Below are positions 2,663 through 50,592 of a DNA stretch of 64,000 bases, in pieces; within the stretch, counting starts at the first letter, position 1; each line of letters opens with the position of its first letter. The position numbers were made by a program, and so were the translations under genes. The stretch comes from Deltaproteobacteria bacterium (GTDB lineage: Bacteria; DRYD01), in assembly GCA_028276365.1 (NCBI GenBank), contig JAPYWL010000004.1:1-64000 (forward strand), read 5' to 3'. The notes beneath the pieces are model-generated. The model searched no databases. It was not told the origin of the DNA and worked only from the letters and a program-made list of their open reading frames with translations.

Positions 2663-2730
2663 TACCGCTAAGCAAGGATAGCGGAATAAAAATTATTCCT
2701 TGCTCCCTAAATTAAAAAAATTTAGGGAAA
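2663..2730 (+). promoter_or_regulatory. structured RNA leader, element 1: H-type pseudoknot plus hairpin
   Basis: CCGCTA (2665-2670) pairs with TAGCGG (2679-2684). The 8-nt loop between them, AGCAAGGA (2671-2678), is perfectly complementary to TCCTTGCT (2697-2704), which gives a crossing H-type pseudoknot or two mutually exclusive hairpins. One base later CCCTAAATT (2705-2713) pairs with AATTTAGGG (2719-2727) around five A. A competing small hairpin GGAATA/TATTCC (2683-2688, 2694-2699) spans the linker. The 3' arm of the last hairpin carries AGGGA, the only Shine-Dalgarno-like stretch before the GTG at 2745, although the spacing is long at 17. No U tract follows, so it is not an intrinsic terminator. 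The same layout and partly the same bases recur before ybaB at 46883-46980. Confidence 0.6.
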
Positions 2731-2744
2731 AAAAATAAATAAAA

Positions 2745-5123
2745 GTGAATAACGTTTTATTTTTAACAACTGAAACTACTATAACTTTACCTACTTTAAC
2801 TTCTAATGAATATTTTTATTTACTTATAATACTTATAGCTGCGTTAATAAGTATCGTTTTTGGATTAGGTACATTTTATAATGTAATGAAAAAAGATTCA
2901 GGAACTCCTGAAATGCAACAAGTAGCATCTGCTATCCAAGAGGGGGCTCAAGCTTATCTTAATAAACAACTTAGTACTATGTCTATTTTTGTTATTATTT
3001 TAGCTATTGCTTTATTTTTCTTATATAATTCAATTTTTAATAACTCATTTTTAGCATTAGGTGTTAGTTTTGCTTTTCTGTTAGGTGTAGGTTTTTCTTA
3101 TATTGCTGGATTTTTAGGGATGTATTTAGCAGTAAGGGCTAATCAAAGAACAGCTTATGCTGCTATTAATAGTTATGTACAGGCAATGAAGATAGCTTTT
3201 AGGGCTGGTAGTGTTGCTGGAATGGCTACTGTTGGATTGGCTCTTTTAGGTGCTGTTTTACTATTTTTTATATATAAAGAAGAGGCAGTTAAAGTTTTTA
3301 TTGGTTTTGGTTTTGGGGGATCATTAGGTGCTTTATTTATGCGGGTTGGTGGAGGTATTTATACTAAAGCTGCTGATGTTGGAGCTGATATAGTCGGTAA
3401 AGTAGAAGCTGGGATTCCTGAAGATGACCCAAGAAATCCTGCAGTTATTGCTGATAATGTTGGTGATAATGTAGGAGATTGTGCAGGTATGGTAGCTGAC
3501 GTTTTTGAGAGCTATGCAGTTACTTTAGTCGCTTCCATTGTATTAGGTGTTGTTGTATTTATAGATCAAAATTTTAAAAATATTTTATTACAAAATAATC
3601 AAAATGTAGATAAATGGATACTTTTATTAGTATTTTATCCGTTATTGGTAAGGGCTTTAGGTGCTATTACTGCTATTATTGGAGTTTTAGCTCTTAATCC
3701 TAAGGAAGATGATACTAATCCGATGAGACCTATAAATTTTGGGTTCTGGGTTTCTTTAATTGCTACATTAATTGGAGCTTTCTTTATTAATTTCTTAATC
3801 CCTACTTTGCCTACTACTCCTGAGTGGGCTAACTGGTTTGGACATGATTTTAGATTCTTCTTAGCTATTTCCTTAGGAGTTGTTTTAGCTGCTATTACTT
3901 TATATATAACTGATTATTATACTCATATTGATAAATTACCTGTAACTGAAACTTCTTATTCTTCTAAAACAGGTACTGCTACTTTAATATTAAGTGGTAT
4001 GGCACATGGTTATCAAAGTAGTGCTTGGGCTATATTAGCTATTATATTCGTTATTGCTTTATCTTATCTACTTTTCTTACCTGATAATAATTTATATTTA
4101 CAAATGTATGCTATTTCTTTAGCAGGAGTAGGATTACTTACTACTACTGGTTATATATTAGCAATGGATACATATGGTCCTATTAGTGATAATGCTAATG
4201 GAGTATTTGAAATGTCTGGAATTGCTAATAAACTTGATACTAAAAGACCTCAAGAAATAATAGCTAAATTAGATGCAGTCGGGAATACTACTAAGGCATT
4301 AACAAAAGGTTTAGCAATAGCTACTGCAGTATTTGCTGCTGTTTCTCTATTTGTATCTTATGTTAGTTCAGCTAACTTAACTGCTGGTATAAGGATTGAT
4401 CAGCCATTAGTATTTTTAGGATTACTTTTTGGTGGTGCTATACCATTTTTCTTTGCTAGTTTTACTATAAATGCTGTTGGTAGAAGTGCTTTTAAGATAG
4501 TTGAAGAAGTTAGAAGACAATTTAGAGAAATTTCTGGATTAAAAGAAGGACAGGCTAAACCTGAATATGGGAAATGTGTTAGTATAGCTACTGCTGCTGC
4601 TCAAAAAGAACTAATTGGTCCTGGAATTTTAGGAGTATTTTCTCCTATTTTAGTAGGTTTCTTATTCAATGCAGAAGCTTTAGGTGCATTTTTAGGTGGA
4701 GTTATATTAGTAGGCCAGTTATTAGCTGTTTATATGGCTAATGCTGGAGGATTATGGGATAATGCTAAAAAGAAAATAGAAGAAGGATTCTTAGGGGGTA
4801 AAGGTACTGAATATCATAAGGCTGCAGTAGTTGGAGATACTGTTGGAGATCCTTTAAAGGATACTACTGGACCCGCTATTAACCCATTAATTAAAGTAAT
4901 AAACTTAGTAGCTCTATTAATTGCTCCTTTAATAGCTGTTGGTAATGAAGTATCTTTAGAATTTAAAATTTCTGCTATTTTAGTAAGTTTGGTATTATTA
5001 ATTATTGCAGTATATGTATCTAATAAAGGATCATTACTTGATAGTGAGGAAGCTAAAAATGAACTACAAAAATTAGCTTCTAAGCATTCCCAATCTAAAT
5101 TAACCGATGAAGCTAAGGTGTAA
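2745..5123 (+). CDS. hppA: membrane-bound (V-type) pyrophosphatase, K+-independent H+-pumping type
   Basis: This integral membrane enzyme couples PPi hydrolysis to ion transport. The 792-residue protein is within family range and has about 16 hydrophobic segments. The catalytic loops are intact: DVGADIVGKVEAG and DDPRNPAVIADNVGDNVGD near residues 210-250, and GDTVGDPLKDTTGPAINP near the C-terminus. The cation signature GNTTKALT at 513-520 has Lys and Thr at the two diagnostic positions; K+-dependent enzymes have Ala (GNTTAA). By family knowledge this marks a K+-independent, usually H+-pumping enzyme. The start is a GTG without a well-placed Shine-Dalgarno, directly after the structured leader element, which suggests translation is controlled. 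The enzyme would recover energy from biosynthetic PPi, as expected in an energy-limited anaerobe. Confidence 0.96.
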   Translation: MNNVLFLTTETTITLPTLTSNEYFYLLIILIAALISIVFGLGTFYNVMKKDSGTPEMQQVASAIQEGAQAYLNKQLSTMSIFVIILAIALFFLYNSIFNNSFLALGVSFAFLLGVGFSYIAGFLGMYLAVRANQRTAYAAINSYVQAMKIAFRAGSVAGMATVGLALLGAVLLFFIYKEEAVKVFIGFGFGGSLGALFMRVGGGIYTKAADVGADIVGKVEAGIPEDDPRNPAVIADNVGDNVGDCAGMVADVFESYAVTLVASIVLGVVVFIDQNFKNILLQNNQNVDKWILLLVFYPLLVRALGAITAIIGVLALNPKEDDTNPMRPINFGFWVSLIATLIGAFFINFLIPTLPTTPEWANWFGHDFRFFLAISLGVVLAAITLYITDYYTHIDKLPVTETSYSSKTGTATLILSGMAHGYQSSAWAILAIIFVIALSYLLFLPDNNLYLQMYAISLAGVGLLTTTGYILAMDTYGPISDNANGVFEMSGIANKLDTKRPQEIIAKLDAVGNTTKALTKGLAIATAVFAAVSLFVSYVSSANLTAGIRIDQPLVFLGLLFGGAIPFFFASFTINAVGRSAFKIVEEVRRQFREISGLKEGQAKPEYGKCVSIATAAAQKELIGPGILGVFSPILVGFLFNAEALGAFLGGVILVGQLLAVYMANAGGLWDNAKKKIEEGFLGGKGTEYHKAAVVGDTVGDPLKDTTGPAINPLIKVINLVALLIAPLIAVGNEVSLEFKISAILVSLVLLIIAVYVSNKGSLLDSEEAKNELQKLASKHSQSKLTDEAKV

Positions 5124-39099: not shown

Positions 39100-39209
39100 A
39101 TAGTAGTAATAAAGAAATGGAAGCTAATCAAATAGTTAATAAAGAGAGTATATTTATAAGGGATTTTGAAGGGTTTATAGAATTCATAAAGAGGGAATTA
39201 GAGTTATGA
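39087..39209 (+). other. -1 frame extension of dnaX after the A10 run
   Basis: Reading one base back at 39087 opens 40 codons (NDNLDSSNKEMEANQ, then FIRDFEGFIEFIKREL) to TGA at 39207-39209. The end overlaps the ATG of the TPR-GGDEF gene as ATGA. The codon make-up resembles the neighbouring coding sequence. A stand-alone ORF from ATG 39117 is the alternative, but it has no ribosome site. I infer either slippage or a homopolymer sequencing error. Confidence 0.5.
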
Positions 39210-41644
39210 AGGGTATTAAAAAAAAATTAAATATATTTAAATTGTTGATAATATTATTTTTAGTAAATTTTGTTTTGAATTTTTTGAGTTTTAGAGTTTA
39301 TGCAATAGATATAAAAGAAATGGAAAATAAAAGTGATTATGAGCTTTATAATATAGCAGCTGAGTATTTTAATAAAGGAAATGATCAGGAAGCTTTTAAA
39401 GTAGTAAAATATTTGTTAGAGAATAAGAATCCAAAAAATAGGGAAGCTTTATATCTTTTGATAGAGATTTTAATAAGGAATATAAATAATTTTCCTGAAG
39501 ATAAGAGAAAAGATATATTTTATCAGATAATAGAAAAAGCTAATTGGATAAATGATAATATAGATTATTATGATTATAAAGCGTATTATTATAAAGGATG
39601 GGCTTTTTATAATTTAGGGGACTTAGCTACTGCTGAAAGAAATTTTAAAGAATCTTTAAAATATTATGCCAATTATTTACCTTCTTTATATTATTTATCT
39701 AAGATTTATTTAGATAAGAATGACTTAGAAAATGCTAGTAAAATTATTGAAAGGATATTAAATATACAGTCTAATAATATTAATTTTAAAAAATTATATT
39801 TTGAGTTGTTAATAAAACAAAATAAATTTGATGAAGCTATAGATTATTTTTATTCTGAGCTTAGTAATTTAAATGATGAAAATATATATTATCTATTAGC
39901 GTTATCTTATTATAATAAAAATGAATTTCCACAAGCTTTAAATTATATCGATAAATCATTAAATATAAAACCTAATGATAATGATTATCTTAAACTAAAG
40001 GTAAAAATATTATTTAAATTAAGAAATTATAAAAATGCAGAAGAAATAATTAATAATTATTTTAAAGATACCATGGATGAAGAAATAAAAAATATATATA
40101 GCAATATTCAGGTAATAAAGAAACAAAAGGTATATATTTTAATTGCTGTTTTGTTAGGTTTATTAGTTGTGATAATAGGTGTATATTTTTATTCTAAAAG
40201 TTATAAAGAAAGTAGGTATAAGAGATATTTACGGGAGCAAAAAGCTAGTTATATAGAAAAGGTATCTAAAAAAGCGGAGAATTTGGAATTATTAACAGGT
40301 TATGCGTATGATTTTTTAGCTAAGTTTTTAGAAGTTCCTAAAATTGGAATCTATATTGTTGATAGTAAGAAAGATAATACACTATATAGTTATGTAAATA
40401 ATATTTCAGAGGATTTACCTGTTGCATTCTATGTTTTTACTAAATATTCTACGTGGTTAAATGAAGGTGCTAATAAACCATTTAGTATTTATCAAATTCA
40501 AGAAGATCCTACTATGAGCGAATATTTTGGGGGTAAAAATTTAATTAATTTTAAAAAATTAGGAGTAAAAGTAATTATACCTGCTGTTTCTAGAGGAGCT
40601 TTACAAGCGTTAATTTTATTAGCTGATGGTAAAGAAGAAAGTGCGTTTTTTGAAAATATAAAACAGAAAAAGGATTTATTGAGTGATATAGTTGAAGAAT
40701 TTGCTAATGATATTATGTCTACCAGGTTTAAGGAGGCAGCTATATTAGATGAACTAACTCGTCTTTATAATAGACGTTATATGCTACAAAAATTAGAAGA
40801 AGAAATTTCTAAAGCTAATCAAACTAAATCCAAGTTATCTTTTATTTTATGTGATATAGATAATTTTAAGAAATTTAATGATACTTATGGGCATCAAGTA
40901 GGTGATGAGGTTTTAAGAGTTGTTGCTAAGGTTTTTAAAGAGTCCTCTAGAGCAGATTTTGATATACCTTTTAGGTATGGTGGGGAAGAAATTGGATTAA
41001 TTTTACCAAATACTGATTCAGAAAAAGCTTTTCAAATTGCTGAGAGAATACGAATGAATGTTTCTTCTAAAAAATTCGAAGGGGTTCCTACTATTATTAC
41101 TATTTCTATTGGATTAGCTACTTATCCTGATCATGCATTAGATGTAGAATCTCTAATAAAAGAAGCGGATGAAGCTTTATATTATTCTAAAAAAACTGGA
41201 AAAAATAAAACTACTATTGCTGGGGTTAAAGTTTTATTAAATGAATCTAATTTAAGTAATCAGCAATTACAGGATTTATCTAAAATTGGCAATGATAAAT
41301 TTAGTGATAAACCTAGTGATAAATCTTTTACAGATGCTAATTTGAAAAAGGAATTTAAATTACCTGCATTTTGTTATTCTTATGAAGATTTTATAGATTA
41401 TTATAATAATCTAAAATCGAATATTTCTAATATTAAATTAGTTTCTATAATATCTGACTTAGATAATTATGAGAAAATTTTATATGATGTACATTTTAAT
41501 TTATTATTAACTGAGAGTGTTTCTGCTAAACTTATTGGCAATAATGAAGTTGAAATAAAAATTTTATTAGTAGAAAGATCAGAAAAAGAAATTCAAGATT
41601 TGATTAATTCTGTTCAAAGTAAATTTAATGTTAAAATTAGCTGA
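39206..41644 (+). CDS. TPR and GAF-like protein with GGDEF domain, membrane-bound diguanylate cyclase
   Basis: From the N-terminus: a signal or anchor (about 9-33), a TPR superhelix (about 40-300; for example YYYKGWAFYNLGDLATAERN), one membrane helix (about 308-330), a GAF-like region (about 345-500) and a GGDEF domain starting DELTRLYNRRYML. The active-site loop is GGEE at 592-595 (RYGGEEIGLIL), the catalytic GG(D/E)EF form, so c-di-GMP synthesis is likely. A further 100-residue C-terminal domain with ferredoxin-like alternation (SVSAKLIGNNEVEIKILLVE) is unknown. TPRs outside and the cyclase inside suggest sensing of an envelope partner. The ATG overlaps the shifted dnaX frame. Confidence 0.88.
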   Translation: MKGIKKKLNIFKLLIILFLVNFVLNFLSFRVYAIDIKEMENKSDYELYNIAAEYFNKGNDQEAFKVVKYLLENKNPKNREALYLLIEILIRNINNFPEDKRKDIFYQIIEKANWINDNIDYYDYKAYYYKGWAFYNLGDLATAERNFKESLKYYANYLPSLYYLSKIYLDKNDLENASKIIERILNIQSNNINFKKLYFELLIKQNKFDEAIDYFYSELSNLNDENIYYLLALSYYNKNEFPQALNYIDKSLNIKPNDNDYLKLKVKILFKLRNYKNAEEIINNYFKDTMDEEIKNIYSNIQVIKKQKVYILIAVLLGLLVVIIGVYFYSKSYKESRYKRYLREQKASYIEKVSKKAENLELLTGYAYDFLAKFLEVPKIGIYIVDSKKDNTLYSYVNNISEDLPVAFYVFTKYSTWLNEGANKPFSIYQIQEDPTMSEYFGGKNLINFKKLGVKVIIPAVSRGALQALILLADGKEESAFFENIKQKKDLLSDIVEEFANDIMSTRFKEAAILDELTRLYNRRYMLQKLEEEISKANQTKSKLSFILCDIDNFKKFNDTYGHQVGDEVLRVVAKVFKESSRADFDIPFRYGGEEIGLILPNTDSEKAFQIAERIRMNVSSKKFEGVPTIITISIGLATYPDHALDVESLIKEADEALYYSKKTGKNKTTIAGVKVLLNESNLSNQQLQDLSKIGNDKFSDKPSDKSFTDANLKKEFKLPAFCYSYEDFIDYYNNLKSNISNIKLVSIISDLDNYEKILYDVHFNLLLTESVSAKLIGNNEVEIKILLVERSEKEIQDLINSVQSKFNVKIS

Positions 41645-45144: not shown

Positions 45145-46884
45145 ATGAAAGTTTTTAATTTTTTTAGATTTAATTTTTTTAGATTTGGTAAGAAAATAGT
45201 TAATAAGGTTGTATTTTTTTTATTATTATTTTGTTTTAGTTTTGGAATTTCTTATTCTTATGAGGTTAAAGTTGTTTATTTTTATGAGGAGGGTAATTAT
45301 TTTGTTTTTTATTATCCTAATTCTTTGAAGTTATTTGTGGATATTAATAGTGGATATGTTATAAAACCTGAGGATCAAGAGGTAAAAATAAATTTTGTTT
45401 CATATATTCTAAATACAAAGACTTTTATAAGTAGGGATGAGGATACTTTTACTAAGCTTTACTTAATAAAAAAAGCTATCGGATTTAATTTTGATGATAT
45501 CCAACCTAACAATGTAGATTATTATTCTTGGTCTAATCTAACTTATAAGTATTTAATAATTTTTTTGAAAAATGTTGAAAATTCTATTACTATAAGTATT
45601 CCTTCTTGGGAAAATTTAAATGAAAATGATAAAAGAGATATAATAGAGAAATATAGATTAGTTTTTGGGACTTCTTTTAATGAACCAAGATATCTACCTT
45701 ATGAGGTTATTTTTAAAAAAGATATTAAATATTATCAGTCTAAAAATCTGGTAAATGATAGTATTTATAGTACTGATACCTTGTATAATACTGAGAATAC
45801 TTTATATAATACTGAAAAAAATTTATCTACTGATATATATAACAAAAGTGATAATACTAGTGATAATACTACTAATTTGCCTACATTTAATACCTTTAGT
45901 AATGTTAAAAATAATAACTTAAATCGGAATTCTAATAATAATTTGATTTCTTTTATTTACGAGAATAAATTTATTATCATTTTTATTTTTCTTTTATTTT
46001 TCCTTTTAATTACGTTGTTTGCGGGATACTTTGTTGTTAAGAAATATTTATTTGCTTCTAGTAAAATTAATAAAGGAATTGATTTAGATAATGATAGTTA
46101 TAAAAAGGATTTAAATGAAGTAAAGGATTTGGATAAAGTTAATGAAGGAGGAAGTAATCTTGATAAAATTTTAGAAAAGAAGATAGAAGAGATAATTGAT
46201 CAAAAGTTATCTAATTTTGAACAAAAAGTAATGGAAAAATTAAATTCATATGTTTCAGAATTAAATAAAAAGGTGGATAGTATTGAAAGTAGTTATTTAA
46301 ATTTGCCAATTAATAAAGGGGAAAAGGATAGTGAATTTGATTTGAGGGCTAATAATAATACTATAGATCAAGGTTTTGATAATGATTTAGGTAAGTCAAA
46401 GAAATTGGATCCTGAAAATCTTGAGATTTTTATGTTTAAAGTAGATAATATTATTTCTAAACTAAAGTTTTTAGAAAATTATAAGGATTATAATATTAAT
46501 GATAAAGCTACTAAAATAATTTTTAAATTACAAGAATTGAAGTCAAAGATTAGAGCTTCTAAATCAATTAATATGGCTTTTTGGGAAGATATTGCTAAGA
46601 ATGATATAATTGATCTCATTTCTCTTTTAGATAGATATTTAGCTTCAATTGATTATAATCCTAATATATCAAAGATTAGGGGAGAATTACTTAATGCTTT
46701 TGACTTAGAAGAGATAGAAGTTATTGTAGGTAGTACTAAGGTTAATATAATTGAGCACAAAGTTGAGGCATATTCTAGAAATCCAAGTGTTCCTAATGGA
46801 ATTATAACAGATTTAAAGGAAAAGGGGTATAAATATAGAGGAATAGTTTTAAAAAGAGCAAAAGTTATAGAAAATAGGGTATAG
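45145..46884 (+). CDS. membrane-anchored protein with GrpE-like C-terminal domain
   Basis: The first 240 residues follow a signal peptide (about 13-32, ending SYS) and form a beta-rich outside region with repeated TLYNTENTLYNTE-type segments. A membrane helix at about 272-296 leads to a cytosolic part: a charged coiled coil (about 330-410) and a helical then beta region (430-579). Its end, IVGSTKVNIIEHKVEAYSRNP then GYKYRGIVLKRAKVIEN, resembles the GrpE beta domain (HEAV, GY, VLRPA.V). I infer a membrane-tethered GrpE-like nucleotide exchanger or scaffold; true GrpE proteins are cytosolic and about 200 residues. The match is short, so treat it as a hypothesis. Confidence 0.6.
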   Translation: MKVFNFFRFNFFRFGKKIVNKVVFFLLLFCFSFGISYSYEVKVVYFYEEGNYFVFYYPNSLKLFVDINSGYVIKPEDQEVKINFVSYILNTKTFISRDEDTFTKLYLIKKAIGFNFDDIQPNNVDYYSWSNLTYKYLIIFLKNVENSITISIPSWENLNENDKRDIIEKYRLVFGTSFNEPRYLPYEVIFKKDIKYYQSKNLVNDSIYSTDTLYNTENTLYNTEKNLSTDIYNKSDNTSDNTTNLPTFNTFSNVKNNNLNRNSNNNLISFIYENKFIIIFIFLLFFLLITLFAGYFVVKKYLFASSKINKGIDLDNDSYKKDLNEVKDLDKVNEGGSNLDKILEKKIEEIIDQKLSNFEQKVMEKLNSYVSELNKKVDSIESSYLNLPINKGEKDSEFDLRANNNTIDQGFDNDLGKSKKLDPENLEIFMFKVDNIISKLKFLENYKDYNINDKATKIIFKLQELKSKIRASKSINMAFWEDIAKNDIIDLISLLDRYLASIDYNPNISKIRGELLNAFDLEEIEVIVGSTKVNIIEHKVEAYSRNPSVPNGIITDLKEKGYKYRGIVLKRAKVIENRV

Positions 46885-46980
46885 ATATGGATAAGTACCG
46901 CCTGCTGAGGGGTATCCATATCTGTTTTAAGGCGGTTAATAAATACCTCAGCCTAAAGTGTTTATATACACTTTAGAGAT
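46883..46980 (+). promoter_or_regulatory. structured RNA leader, element 2: pseudoknot plus hairpin before ybaB
   Basis: ACCGCC (46897-46902) pairs with GGCGGT (46931-46936), and GCTGAGG (46904-46910) pairs with CCTCAGC (46946-46952). The two stems cross, as in element 1. CTAAAGTGT (46953-46961) then pairs with ACACTTTAG (46968-46976) in a hairpin that abuts the second stem, and AGAGA follows 10 bases before the ybaB ATG. An extra perfect 11-bp inverted repeat (46883-46893 with 46913-46923) encloses the 5' strands and would compete with or lock the fold. It starts at the stop codon of the preceding gene. Shared bases with element 1 include TACCGC(T/C), (A/G)AGG, GCGG, CCTAAA and TTTAG(A/G)GA. 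Confidence 0.6.
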
Positions 46981-46989
46981 AAAAAAGTT

Positions 46990-47286
46990 ATGCAGTTTAA
47001 TAAGAATTTATTAAATCAGGTACAGAATATGGCTAATAAATTACAGCAGGAAATGGCTAATGAAAAATATGAAGGACAAGCTGGTAATGGAAAAGTTAAA
47101 GTAGTTGTTAGTGGATTACAAGAGGTTATTTCTATCAGTATTGATGATGAGTTGTTAAAAGATGATAAGACATTATTAGAGGATTTGTTAGTTGTTGCTT
47201 TAAATGATGCTCTAAATAAATCTAAGGAAGCTGGTAATAACGCTATAGCTAAATTACTTGGTAATATGAATTTAAATTTATTTTAA
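46990..47286 (+). CDS. ybaB: YbaB/EbfC family nucleoid-associated protein
   Basis: At 98 residues this has the family core: LLNQVQNMANKLQQEMANEKYEG, GNGKVKVVVSGLQEVISISID and DLLVVALNDALNKSKE. YbaB dimers bind DNA with a tweezers-like fold and are linked to nucleoid organisation. It is usually found between dnaX and recR; here dnaX is about 8 kb upstream and recR is not seen. The start lies just after the structured leader. No strong Shine-Dalgarno exists other than the AGAGA at the foot of the hairpin, which suggests structural control of initiation. Confidence 0.94.
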   Translation: MQFNKNLLNQVQNMANKLQQEMANEKYEGQAGNGKVKVVVSGLQEVISISIDDELLKDDKTLLEDLLVVALNDALNKSKEAGNNAIAKLLGNMNLNLF

Positions 47287-48321: not shown

Positions 48322-50592
48322 ATGTTTAAGCAAAACTTAGAATATTTTAGTTTGATAAATTTGATAAATATAGAGATAAATTATAAAATTGCTCCGATTG
48401 AAGTAAGAGAGAAATTGCTTTTTGATAAAAATAATTTAATATCTTTAAAAAATTCTATTATTCAGGATGATTTTCTTAAAACAATAATTAATGGTATATT
48501 TATTTTATCTACTTGTAATAGAACGAGTTTATTTCTTGATTTAAATGTAAATCAAGTGTATAAAGAAAATTTAGAAGTTTTTGAAAATATTGATAAATTC
48601 AGTTTTAATAATTTTTTATTGAGTTTAGATATTGATAATTTATTAAAGAAGCTTAATTTAGATGGTTTAAAAAATTACTTAGTAATAAGAAGAGGTTTGG
48701 AAGCTGTGGAAAATTTATTAAGGATATCTTGTGGTTTAGAATCTCAAATTTTTGGTGAAACTGATATTATTAGACAAATTAAGCAATATTATAGTTACTG
48801 TAGGGAACTTAATTTATTAAGTAGTTTTTTAGAAATTTTGATTAATAAAATTTTAAACTATTCTAAAGAGTTTGATGTTAATATAAGATCTAAGTTTAAT
48901 AATCTTAGAAATAGTTTTGCTAATTTTATTATAAATTTTATTAGAAAATGTAATTATAGTAAAGTAAATTTATTGTTTATTGGTTTAGGTAGTGTTTCTA
49001 AACAGATAATAAAACTTATAGTAAGTGATGAGTTTATTTTTAATAAAATTCAGGAAATTGTTATTGTTTCTGATTATTATGAAAATCTTAAACAAAGTTT
49101 AAAAGAATATTCTATTTTTAGTTTTTATAAAAAAAATGAAATTAAATTAGTCTTTGAAAAGATGAAAAACAAAATCGACTTTATTATAGTTAATTCTAAA
49201 AATTTCTTCTTAGAATACGAATATTTAAGGGATATAACTAAAGATGTTATTATCTTTGATTTAGGTGTTCCCAGAAGTGTTGATCCTTCTATTTGTACAT
49301 TATCAAATTTTAAGTTATTTGATTTAGATAAATTAAAGGAACTTGATTTTACTAATGATTCCTTAAATGTTTCAAATAATTTAAATGAAATTATTGAGTT
49401 TTTTATTAAAGAAAGGCTTAAGCAATTTTATAACTACATTATTTCCAGAACCTTAGATAAAAAGTTATTAACTTTTTATGAACAAATGCAAGATATAAAA
49501 CAAGAAATATTAATTGAGAATAATAACAAGAAAATAAGTAGTATAGATCTTATAGATAGGTATATAAAGAAATTGATTTATAAAATTTCGAAGGTACATA
49601 AAGATTATATGCTATTAACTAATAATACAGGGATATTTAAGAGGCAAATAATATTAGGTAGTAGAGGATCAAAATTGGCATTAATTCAAACTTATAAAGT
49701 GCTTGATTTATTAAAGTTATTTTTTCCAGATTTTGATTTTTATGTTAAAATTATAAAAACCAGTGGGGATAAAAAGATTTATACTAATAATTCATTTGTA
49801 AAGGAATTAGAGGAGGCATTGGTTAATGAAGAAATTGATATAGCTGTTAATAGCTTAAAGGATATGCCTTATAATATTAATGAATATACAAATATAGCTG
49901 CTGTATTAAAAAGAGAAGAAGTAAATGATATTTTAATTTCTAAAGATAACAAATCTTTTTGGGATTTAGAACCTTATAAAGTTATTGGTACTTCATCTTT
50001 AAGAAGAAAGGAACAATTGAAATTACTTAGACCTGATTTAATATTTAAAGATATAACTGGAAATGTTGATACCAGGATAAAAAAGTTAAATAATTTAGGA
50101 GATTATGATGCTATAGTTTTAGCAAAAGCTTCTATTAAGCGTTTAAATCTTGAATATTTTATATCTTATGAGTTTTCAATTGAAGAAGTTGTACCTGCTG
50201 TTGGGCAGGGAGTTATTGCTTTACAAACTCGTAAAAACTCATTTTTAAACCAAATTTTATTTAGGATTAATGATATTAAAACTTTTTTAGAAATAGCTAT
50301 TGAAAGAGAAATTATGGGAATTCTTAAATTAGGTTGTAGAAATCCTTTAGGATTATATGTATCTATTGAAAACAATTTTATTAATATCTATTACTTTTTT
50401 ATCTATAATGGCAATATATTTAAAGGTAGGAAACAAATTAATTTAATAAACAATAAAAATTTTCAATTAATTATAAGTTTAATTAAAAATCCTGAACAGT
50501 ATCATAATTTTAAAAATGAAGTGTATTATATTATTAATGATTTAGCAAATGATTTTATAAAGCAAATAGCAGGATTAAGTATAAATTTTTAG
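48322..50592 (+). CDS. hemA-hemC: fused glutamyl-tRNA reductase and hydroxymethylbilane synthase (HemA-HemC)
   Basis: One 756-residue protein holds two tetrapyrrole enzymes. Residues 1 to about 430 are glutamyl-tRNA reductase: catalytic Cys65 in STCNRTS, CGLESQIFGETDIIRQIK, an NADPH-binding LLFIGLGSVSKQ and IFDLGVPRSVD. Residues about 440-756 are hydroxymethylbilane synthase: LGSRGSKLALIQT, VNSLKDMP, GTSSLRRKEQL, VDTRIKKL, and the dipyrromethane-bearing Cys672 in KLGCRNPLG. No stop or homopolymer break lies between them. The enzymes catalyse steps one and four of the C5 route; GSA aminotransferase and ALA dehydratase lie between and are not seen here. Coupling of non-consecutive steps points to co-regulation rather than channelling. 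Confidence 0.94.
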   Translation: MFKQNLEYFSLINLINIEINYKIAPIEVREKLLFDKNNLISLKNSIIQDDFLKTIINGIFILSTCNRTSLFLDLNVNQVYKENLEVFENIDKFSFNNFLLSLDIDNLLKKLNLDGLKNYLVIRRGLEAVENLLRISCGLESQIFGETDIIRQIKQYYSYCRELNLLSSFLEILINKILNYSKEFDVNIRSKFNNLRNSFANFIINFIRKCNYSKVNLLFIGLGSVSKQIIKLIVSDEFIFNKIQEIVIVSDYYENLKQSLKEYSIFSFYKKNEIKLVFEKMKNKIDFIIVNSKNFFLEYEYLRDITKDVIIFDLGVPRSVDPSICTLSNFKLFDLDKLKELDFTNDSLNVSNNLNEIIEFFIKERLKQFYNYIISRTLDKKLLTFYEQMQDIKQEILIENNNKKISSIDLIDRYIKKLIYKISKVHKDYMLLTNNTGIFKRQIILGSRGSKLALIQTYKVLDLLKLFFPDFDFYVKIIKTSGDKKIYTNNSFVKELEEALVNEEIDIAVNSLKDMPYNINEYTNIAAVLKREEVNDILISKDNKSFWDLEPYKVIGTSSLRRKEQLKLLRPDLIFKDITGNVDTRIKKLNNLGDYDAIVLAKASIKRLNLEYFISYEFSIEEVVPAVGQGVIALQTRKNSFLNQILFRINDIKTFLEIAIEREIMGILKLGCRNPLGLYVSIENNFINIYYFFIYNGNIFKGRKQINLINNKNFQLIISLIKNPEQYHNFKNEVYYIINDLANDFIKQIAGLSINF

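Follow-up and report, generated by a model that had tools for sequence, protein, structure and literature searches.

A family-specific mRNA pseudoknot as a candidate translation-start signal in place of the Shine-Dalgarno sequence

It is thought that a bacterial translation start is marked by a Shine-Dalgarno (SD) sequence, by the absence of structure, or by the mRNA being leaderless. Among structured leaders, the preQ1-I and SAM-II riboswitches fold as H-type pseudoknots with a short first loop and an A-rich loop lying along stem 1. In the type I toxin mRNAs tisB and timP, an upstream pseudoknot is required for translation; its recogniser is thought to be ribosomal protein S1 and/or the 30S subunit, with S1 proposed as a helper, and timP retains an SD (PMC11228461). 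The pseudoknot of the Escherichia coli rpsO mRNA docks on the platform of the 30S subunit before initiation (PMC3858243). When the dicistrovirus IGR IRES was placed in E. coli, its structure was dispensable, and S1 and an SD-like stretch were used (PMC9458429). Known non-SD genes have reduced structure around the start, and either weakly structured leaders or leaderless mRNA (PMC5397173).

The element described here was compared with each of these systems. The element shares with tisB and timP a pseudoknot that precedes the start codon. Each of those is an individual mRNA that still uses its own ribosome-binding site, with the structure far upstream and S1 as the proposed recogniser; the element, by contrast, stands at similar spacing before dozens of genes, where the SD is mostly absent, and S1 was not found. 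The rpsO leader differs in that it has an SD, needs S1 for unfolding, and serves S15 autoregulation (PMC3858243). With the IGR IRES the element has in common the notion that structure can drive initiation between cistrons, but a single H-type pseudoknot is a fold unrelated to the triple pseudoknot of IGR-type IRESs. The missing SD and the A-rich stretch just before the AUG are as in non-SD initiation, and the conserved fold directly upstream sets the element apart from the known non-SD genes. Its topology is that of preQ1-I and SAM-II, but there was no Rfam match, no pathway theme, and mostly no SD to be masked.

The window (the whole 64-kb stretch of DNA that was analysed) contained one copy before hppA (E1) and one before ybaB (E2); their features are listed in Table 1. 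Crossing stems with an abutting hairpin and an 11-bp inverted repeat had been claimed before ybaB in a sequence-only reading, together with the same order of stems before hppA. Every pairing named there was present in E2, the inverted repeat (P0) was found and recurred in most copies with a long linker, and the stem order before hppA was the same. The 5' strand of P0 begins at the stop codon of the upstream gene, and the 13-nt spacer before the ybaB start codon lacks a strong SD. When the window was scanned for crossing GC-rich stems of 6 and 7 bp, E1 and E2 were the sole matches, and E2 was reproduced in 0 of 40,000 Markov shuffles of its intergenic stretch. In a check for terminators, hairpin 3 was followed in both window copies by A-rich sequence with no U run. 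With a pattern built from E1 and E2, a third copy was found in the window genome, before a Kbl-like gene, and in the one relative of the same genus both hppA and the Kbl-like gene were preceded by a copy.

Table 1. Coordinates of the two window copies of the element and of the genes that they precede
Feature	Sequence (5' / 3' strand)	Position in window	Strand	Remarks
E1 pseudoknot		2665..2704	+	
E1 stem 1	CCGCT / AGCGG	2665-2669 / 2680-2684	+	
E1 stem 2	AGCAAGGA / TCCTTGCT	2671-2678 / 2697-2704	+	
E1 pseudoknot loop	AATAAAAAT			
E1 hairpin 3	CCCTAAATT / AATTTAGGG	2705..2727	+	17 nt before GTG start
hppA		2745..5123	+	membrane pyrophosphatase; gene served by E1
E2 P0 inverted repeat	AGATATGGATA / TATCCATATCT	46883-46893 / 46913-46923	+	11 bp
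E2 stem 1	ACCGCC / GGCGGT	46897-46902 / 46931-46936	+	
E2 stem 1, family core	CCGCC	46898-46902	+	
E2 stem 2	GCTGAGG / CCTCAGC	46904-46910 / 46946-46952	+	
E2 long linker L2		46911..46930	+	contains the P0 3' strand
E2 A-rich loop L3	TTAATAAATA	46936..46945	+	
E2 hairpin 3	CTAAAGTGT / ACACTTTAG	46953-46961 / 46968-46976	+	
E2 hairpin 3, whole		46953..46976	+	optional part; adjoins stem 2; ends 13 nt before AUG
ybaB/ebfC		46990..47286	+	nucleoid-associated protein; TIGR00103 match; gene served by E2

A pattern with relaxed stem 2 gave 83 strict matches, spread over all six genomes of one bacterial family (G000, 15; G001, 20; G002, 16; G003, 14; G004, 7; G005, 11), and none when reversed; a genome from another family of the same order (G006) had 0 strict matches. 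Three of the 83 looked spurious: two were located in coding sequence, and one mirrored a palindromic site. Further copies, with loop variation, came in when a single mismatch was tolerated at any position, and in these stem 1 was still CCGC/GCGG. The final total, which covers the DNA fetched from these six genomes, was 110 distinct copies including E1 and E2, against 0 in the reversed-sequence control. Among 386 genomes across the domain, the element occurred in numbers only in this family; genomes outside it had 0–2 matches, counted irrespective of stem-2 pairing, which is about the control rate. A narrow form with AGG/CCT was scanned in 84,980 species genomes and gave 23 hits, about the chance expectation, of which only those in two records paired convincingly, both records being from this family (L058 and L062 match G001 copies, and L064 sits in a genome matching G005). 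The narrow pattern had a single match in the IMG/VR contigs, and this was without stem 2. Searches of Rfam 15 returned no relevant match for the window at the gathering threshold, and no bacterial family up to E=5 for five element loci.

The copies share the layout of an H-type pseudoknot: the 5' strand of stem 1 (CCGCY/RGCGG) is followed, usually after 0–2 nt, by the 5' strand of stem 2 (mostly 5–9 bp), a linker, the 3' strand of stem 1, the loop W-ATAWAAAT directly after GCGG, often one A, and the 3' strand of stem 2. Stem 1 and the ATAWAAAT part of the loop are near invariant; stem 2 is gene-specific, yet its pairing is kept. Covariation had been claimed from the two window copies and was upheld by 46 aligned copies, in which 99.8% of cells paired compared with 69% after shuffling. 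In this alignment, which had 46 rows built from structural blocks, all six stem-2 pairs varied on both sides; in stem 1, the fifth pair occurred as U-A, C-G, and G-C. As the alignment columns were selected by pairing, the unbiased test is the permutation of stem-2 partners among copies, where the observed pairing of 17.1 was never reached in 1000 permutations (10.1, SD 0.3). The linker measured 0–5 nt in most copies and 13–32 nt in nineteen. In most of the long-linker copies, E2 among them as a P0 subtype, the linker can pair with the 5' flank to form P0, more often than in swapped controls; in one (L112) it contains a hairpin of its own. Of the proposed switch between two folds, the alternative P0 fold was thus recovered in most long-linker copies, but it does not hold as a general mechanism because the linker of most copies, at 0–5 nt, leaves no room for P0.

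A same-strand open reading frame started within 130 nt in 93 of 95 copies, mostly 9–25 nt after stem 2. Where the distance was larger, a hairpin was usually inserted directly 3' of stem 2, and the distance from the hairpin end to the AUG was mostly 12–17 nt (ybaB 13, hppA 17); hairpin 3 is missing from most copies. Measured from its 3' edge, whether pseudoknot or hairpin, the folded part mostly ends 10–20 nt before the start codon, so this edge is kept at a near-constant distance from it. Many copies are intercistronic, since an upstream stop codon on the same strand was located at most 30 nt from the element in 54 of the 95.

About 50 groups of proteins are encoded downstream; they are of mixed function and mostly housekeeping. 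Ribosomal targets comprise S2, S4, L5, L7/L12, L17, L31, and L32, as well as the ribosome recycling factor (frr). Further targets are trigger factor (tig), AlaRS (alaS), an AsnRS-like synthetase, RecA, and SSB; in metabolism, GAPDH (gapA), aldolase, pyruvate phosphate dikinase, malate/lactate dehydrogenase (mdh), and an isocitrate-type dehydrogenase; and, in addition, acyl carrier protein, an enoyl-reductase-like SDR, a NuoE-like protein, AtpH, PRPP synthetase, KhpB, and CutA. Most targets are non-ribosomal and the element is not confined to ribosomal-protein operons, as would be expected of autogenous leaders. No pathway or ligand theme was common to the downstream proteins of these groups, in support of the earlier suggestion that the signal is not pathway-specific. 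The switch responding to energy or ion stress that had been proposed for hppA and ybaB was not supported, as the proteins form about 50 unrelated groups and the element replaces the SD and does not mask it. A defence gene also carries the signal: in G003, the element precedes csm2 of a type III CRISPR system (L140).

The relation to the SD was first seen at ybaB, trm112, atpH, and a pilT-like gene, whose orthologs without the element had a strong SD and whose element-bearing copies had none. Orthologs of more than 20 genes were recovered across the six genomes with chimeric N-terminus queries, and the comparison was made between orthologs because a comparison against all open reading frames is diluted by wrong start calls. 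The median SD:anti-SD energy was −3.3 kcal/mol for 62 element-bearing starts and −11.85 kcal/mol for 74 element-less orthologs, and energies of −6 kcal/mol or lower were found in 14/62 and 70/74, respectively. The 26 ortholog groups in which both states occur, from which these starts were taken, all showed the same direction (Mann-Whitney p 3e-18; Wilcoxon p 3e-8). At ybaB, a weak SD with the element in the window stands against a strong SD (AAAGGAGGT, AAGGAGGT, AGGAGGT or GGAGGT) and no element in five of five relatives. The ybaB position of E2 is therefore specific to the window genome, and absence from the ybaB leaders of close relatives (here G001–G005) had been named in the sequence-only reading as evidence against it; it is no refutation, because the same genomes carry the element before many other genes. 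The two signals can occur together: a good SD is still present at about one-fifth of the element-bearing starts (trx of G001, orf244, gapA of G003 and G005, rplL), and strict exclusion therefore does not hold. With this proviso, the ortholog comparison establishes that the two behave as alternatives at the level of sequence. The loss of the SD could also reflect relaxed selection if the element acts otherwise, e.g., by setting the 5' end of the RNA.

The anti-SD CACCTCC of the 16S rRNA is intact. The 5' strand of stem 2 was considered as the SD itself and rejected, as many of these strands are not SD-like (TACCAGCT, TGTCCG, CCAGCG). Pairing of the conserved core with 16S rRNA gave short matches only, the longest of which (13 nt) was outside the 16S gene. 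Two of the 16S 3' ends, from G001 (L177) and G002 (L178), were identical, including the spacer, despite the different genera, and one rRNA contig of the two may be misbinned.

Ribosomal protein S1 was not found with an rpsA model in the six element-bearing genomes, which are draft MAGs of 71–90% completeness. In each family genome the model returned only a single S1 domain, which lay within a frame of approximately 700 aa (L455–L460 in G000–G005); in G000, the one genome checked, this frame was PNPase. The element-less G006, of the sister family, had a true S1 protein (L454). If the completeness figures are taken at face value, S1 would have been missed six times by chance in about 1 of 100,000 cases. 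In this small sample, the genomes that use the element appear to be those that have lost S1, which is a correlation only. Recruitment through S1, the usual precedent, is disfavoured by its seeming absence, and recognition is probably by the 30S subunit itself or by another factor, because the expected reader of such folds seems to be missing.

We consider it likely that the element is a pseudoknot translation-start signal that substitutes for the SD. The folded RNA would dock on the 30S subunit at the site usually occupied by the SD helix, in the mRNA exit/platform region; this docking is our inference. The invariant stem 1 and the A-rich loop would be read by the recogniser, either the 30S subunit itself or a lineage-specific protein other than S1, and the AUG would thereby be held near the P site. 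In some copies, including E2, P0 may add regulation. A broader reading, to which we lean slightly less than to its opposite, is that this family lacks S1 and has a second genome-wide recruitment code, in which the pseudoknot would be recognised by shape by the 30S subunit, do the job of the SD helix, and be exchanged with SD sites during evolution, as a native bacterial counterpart of an IRES. If true, a conserved fold that repeatedly swaps with the SD before essential genes would add a further class to the start signals, and how a 30S subunit without S1 reads structured mRNA would become directly testable. The element could then also be used as an orthogonal ribosome-binding part in synthetic biology, and gene finders that score the SD would misplace such starts.

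The best rival is a signal for RNA processing or mRNA stability, that is, a site in polycistronic mRNA that a nuclease uses as a landmark or meets as a barrier, giving short leaders, after which the downstream cistron is read as if leaderless. We regard it as unlikely, although the mostly intercistronic position, the short and A-rich (53% A) leaders 3' of the pseudoknot, and a BFN gene that in four relatives directly follows a tRNA and has no SD and no element, as fits a processed short leader, are in its favour. Leaders with hairpin 3 are 25–55 nt long and thus not leaderless, for some copies the sequence upstream is promoter-like and no gene is close by on that side, and the near-constant spacing between the last helix and the AUG is what ribosome positioning predicts. 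Control by a ligand or protein, in which a global riboswitch or the site of one regulator would co-tune housekeeping genes, would account for the near invariance of stem 1 and L3 next to a freely varying stem 2, as in a recognised site, and for the alternative inverted repeat of long-linker copies. A standard switch masks an SD that is mostly absent here, however, no pathway is common to the targets, and a repressor site alone leaves the loss of the SD unexplained; such control seems quite improbable.

We also considered a selfish dispersed repeat, without function for the host, for which a place before genes is tolerable; near-identical copies, as expected of a transposon-borne repeat, were looked for. 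They formed a single subfamily in G001, with 11 copies (L130, L344–L353) sharing approximately 85–110 nt, a promoter-like TATAAT upstream, and the hairpin AAAGTGTATAAGAATATACACTTT, before unrelated genes; it looks as if this subfamily was recently amplified. That subfamily and the restriction of E2 at ybaB to one genome would suit a selfish repeat. We nevertheless find this reading hardly credible, as stem 2 differs in most copies, its pairing is conserved, copies are kept at orthologs across two genera (rpsD, cutA, STAS, acpP, khpB), orientation and start-codon distance are fixed, and the SD is systematically missing.

Some minor observations were made along with these results. Hairpin 3 of E2 resembles the amplified subfamily of G001. 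At the bifunctional-nuclease (BFN) gene (L365, L368, L369, L376), tRNA processing would give a nearly leaderless mRNA. In the window, one open reading frame (48322–50592) joins an N-terminal glutamyl-tRNA reductase (hemA) to a C-terminal hydroxymethylbilane synthase (hemC) in a natural fusion, and a large TPR-GGDEF protein with a diguanylate cyclase domain (39206–41644) is encoded between dnaX and a nusB-like gene.
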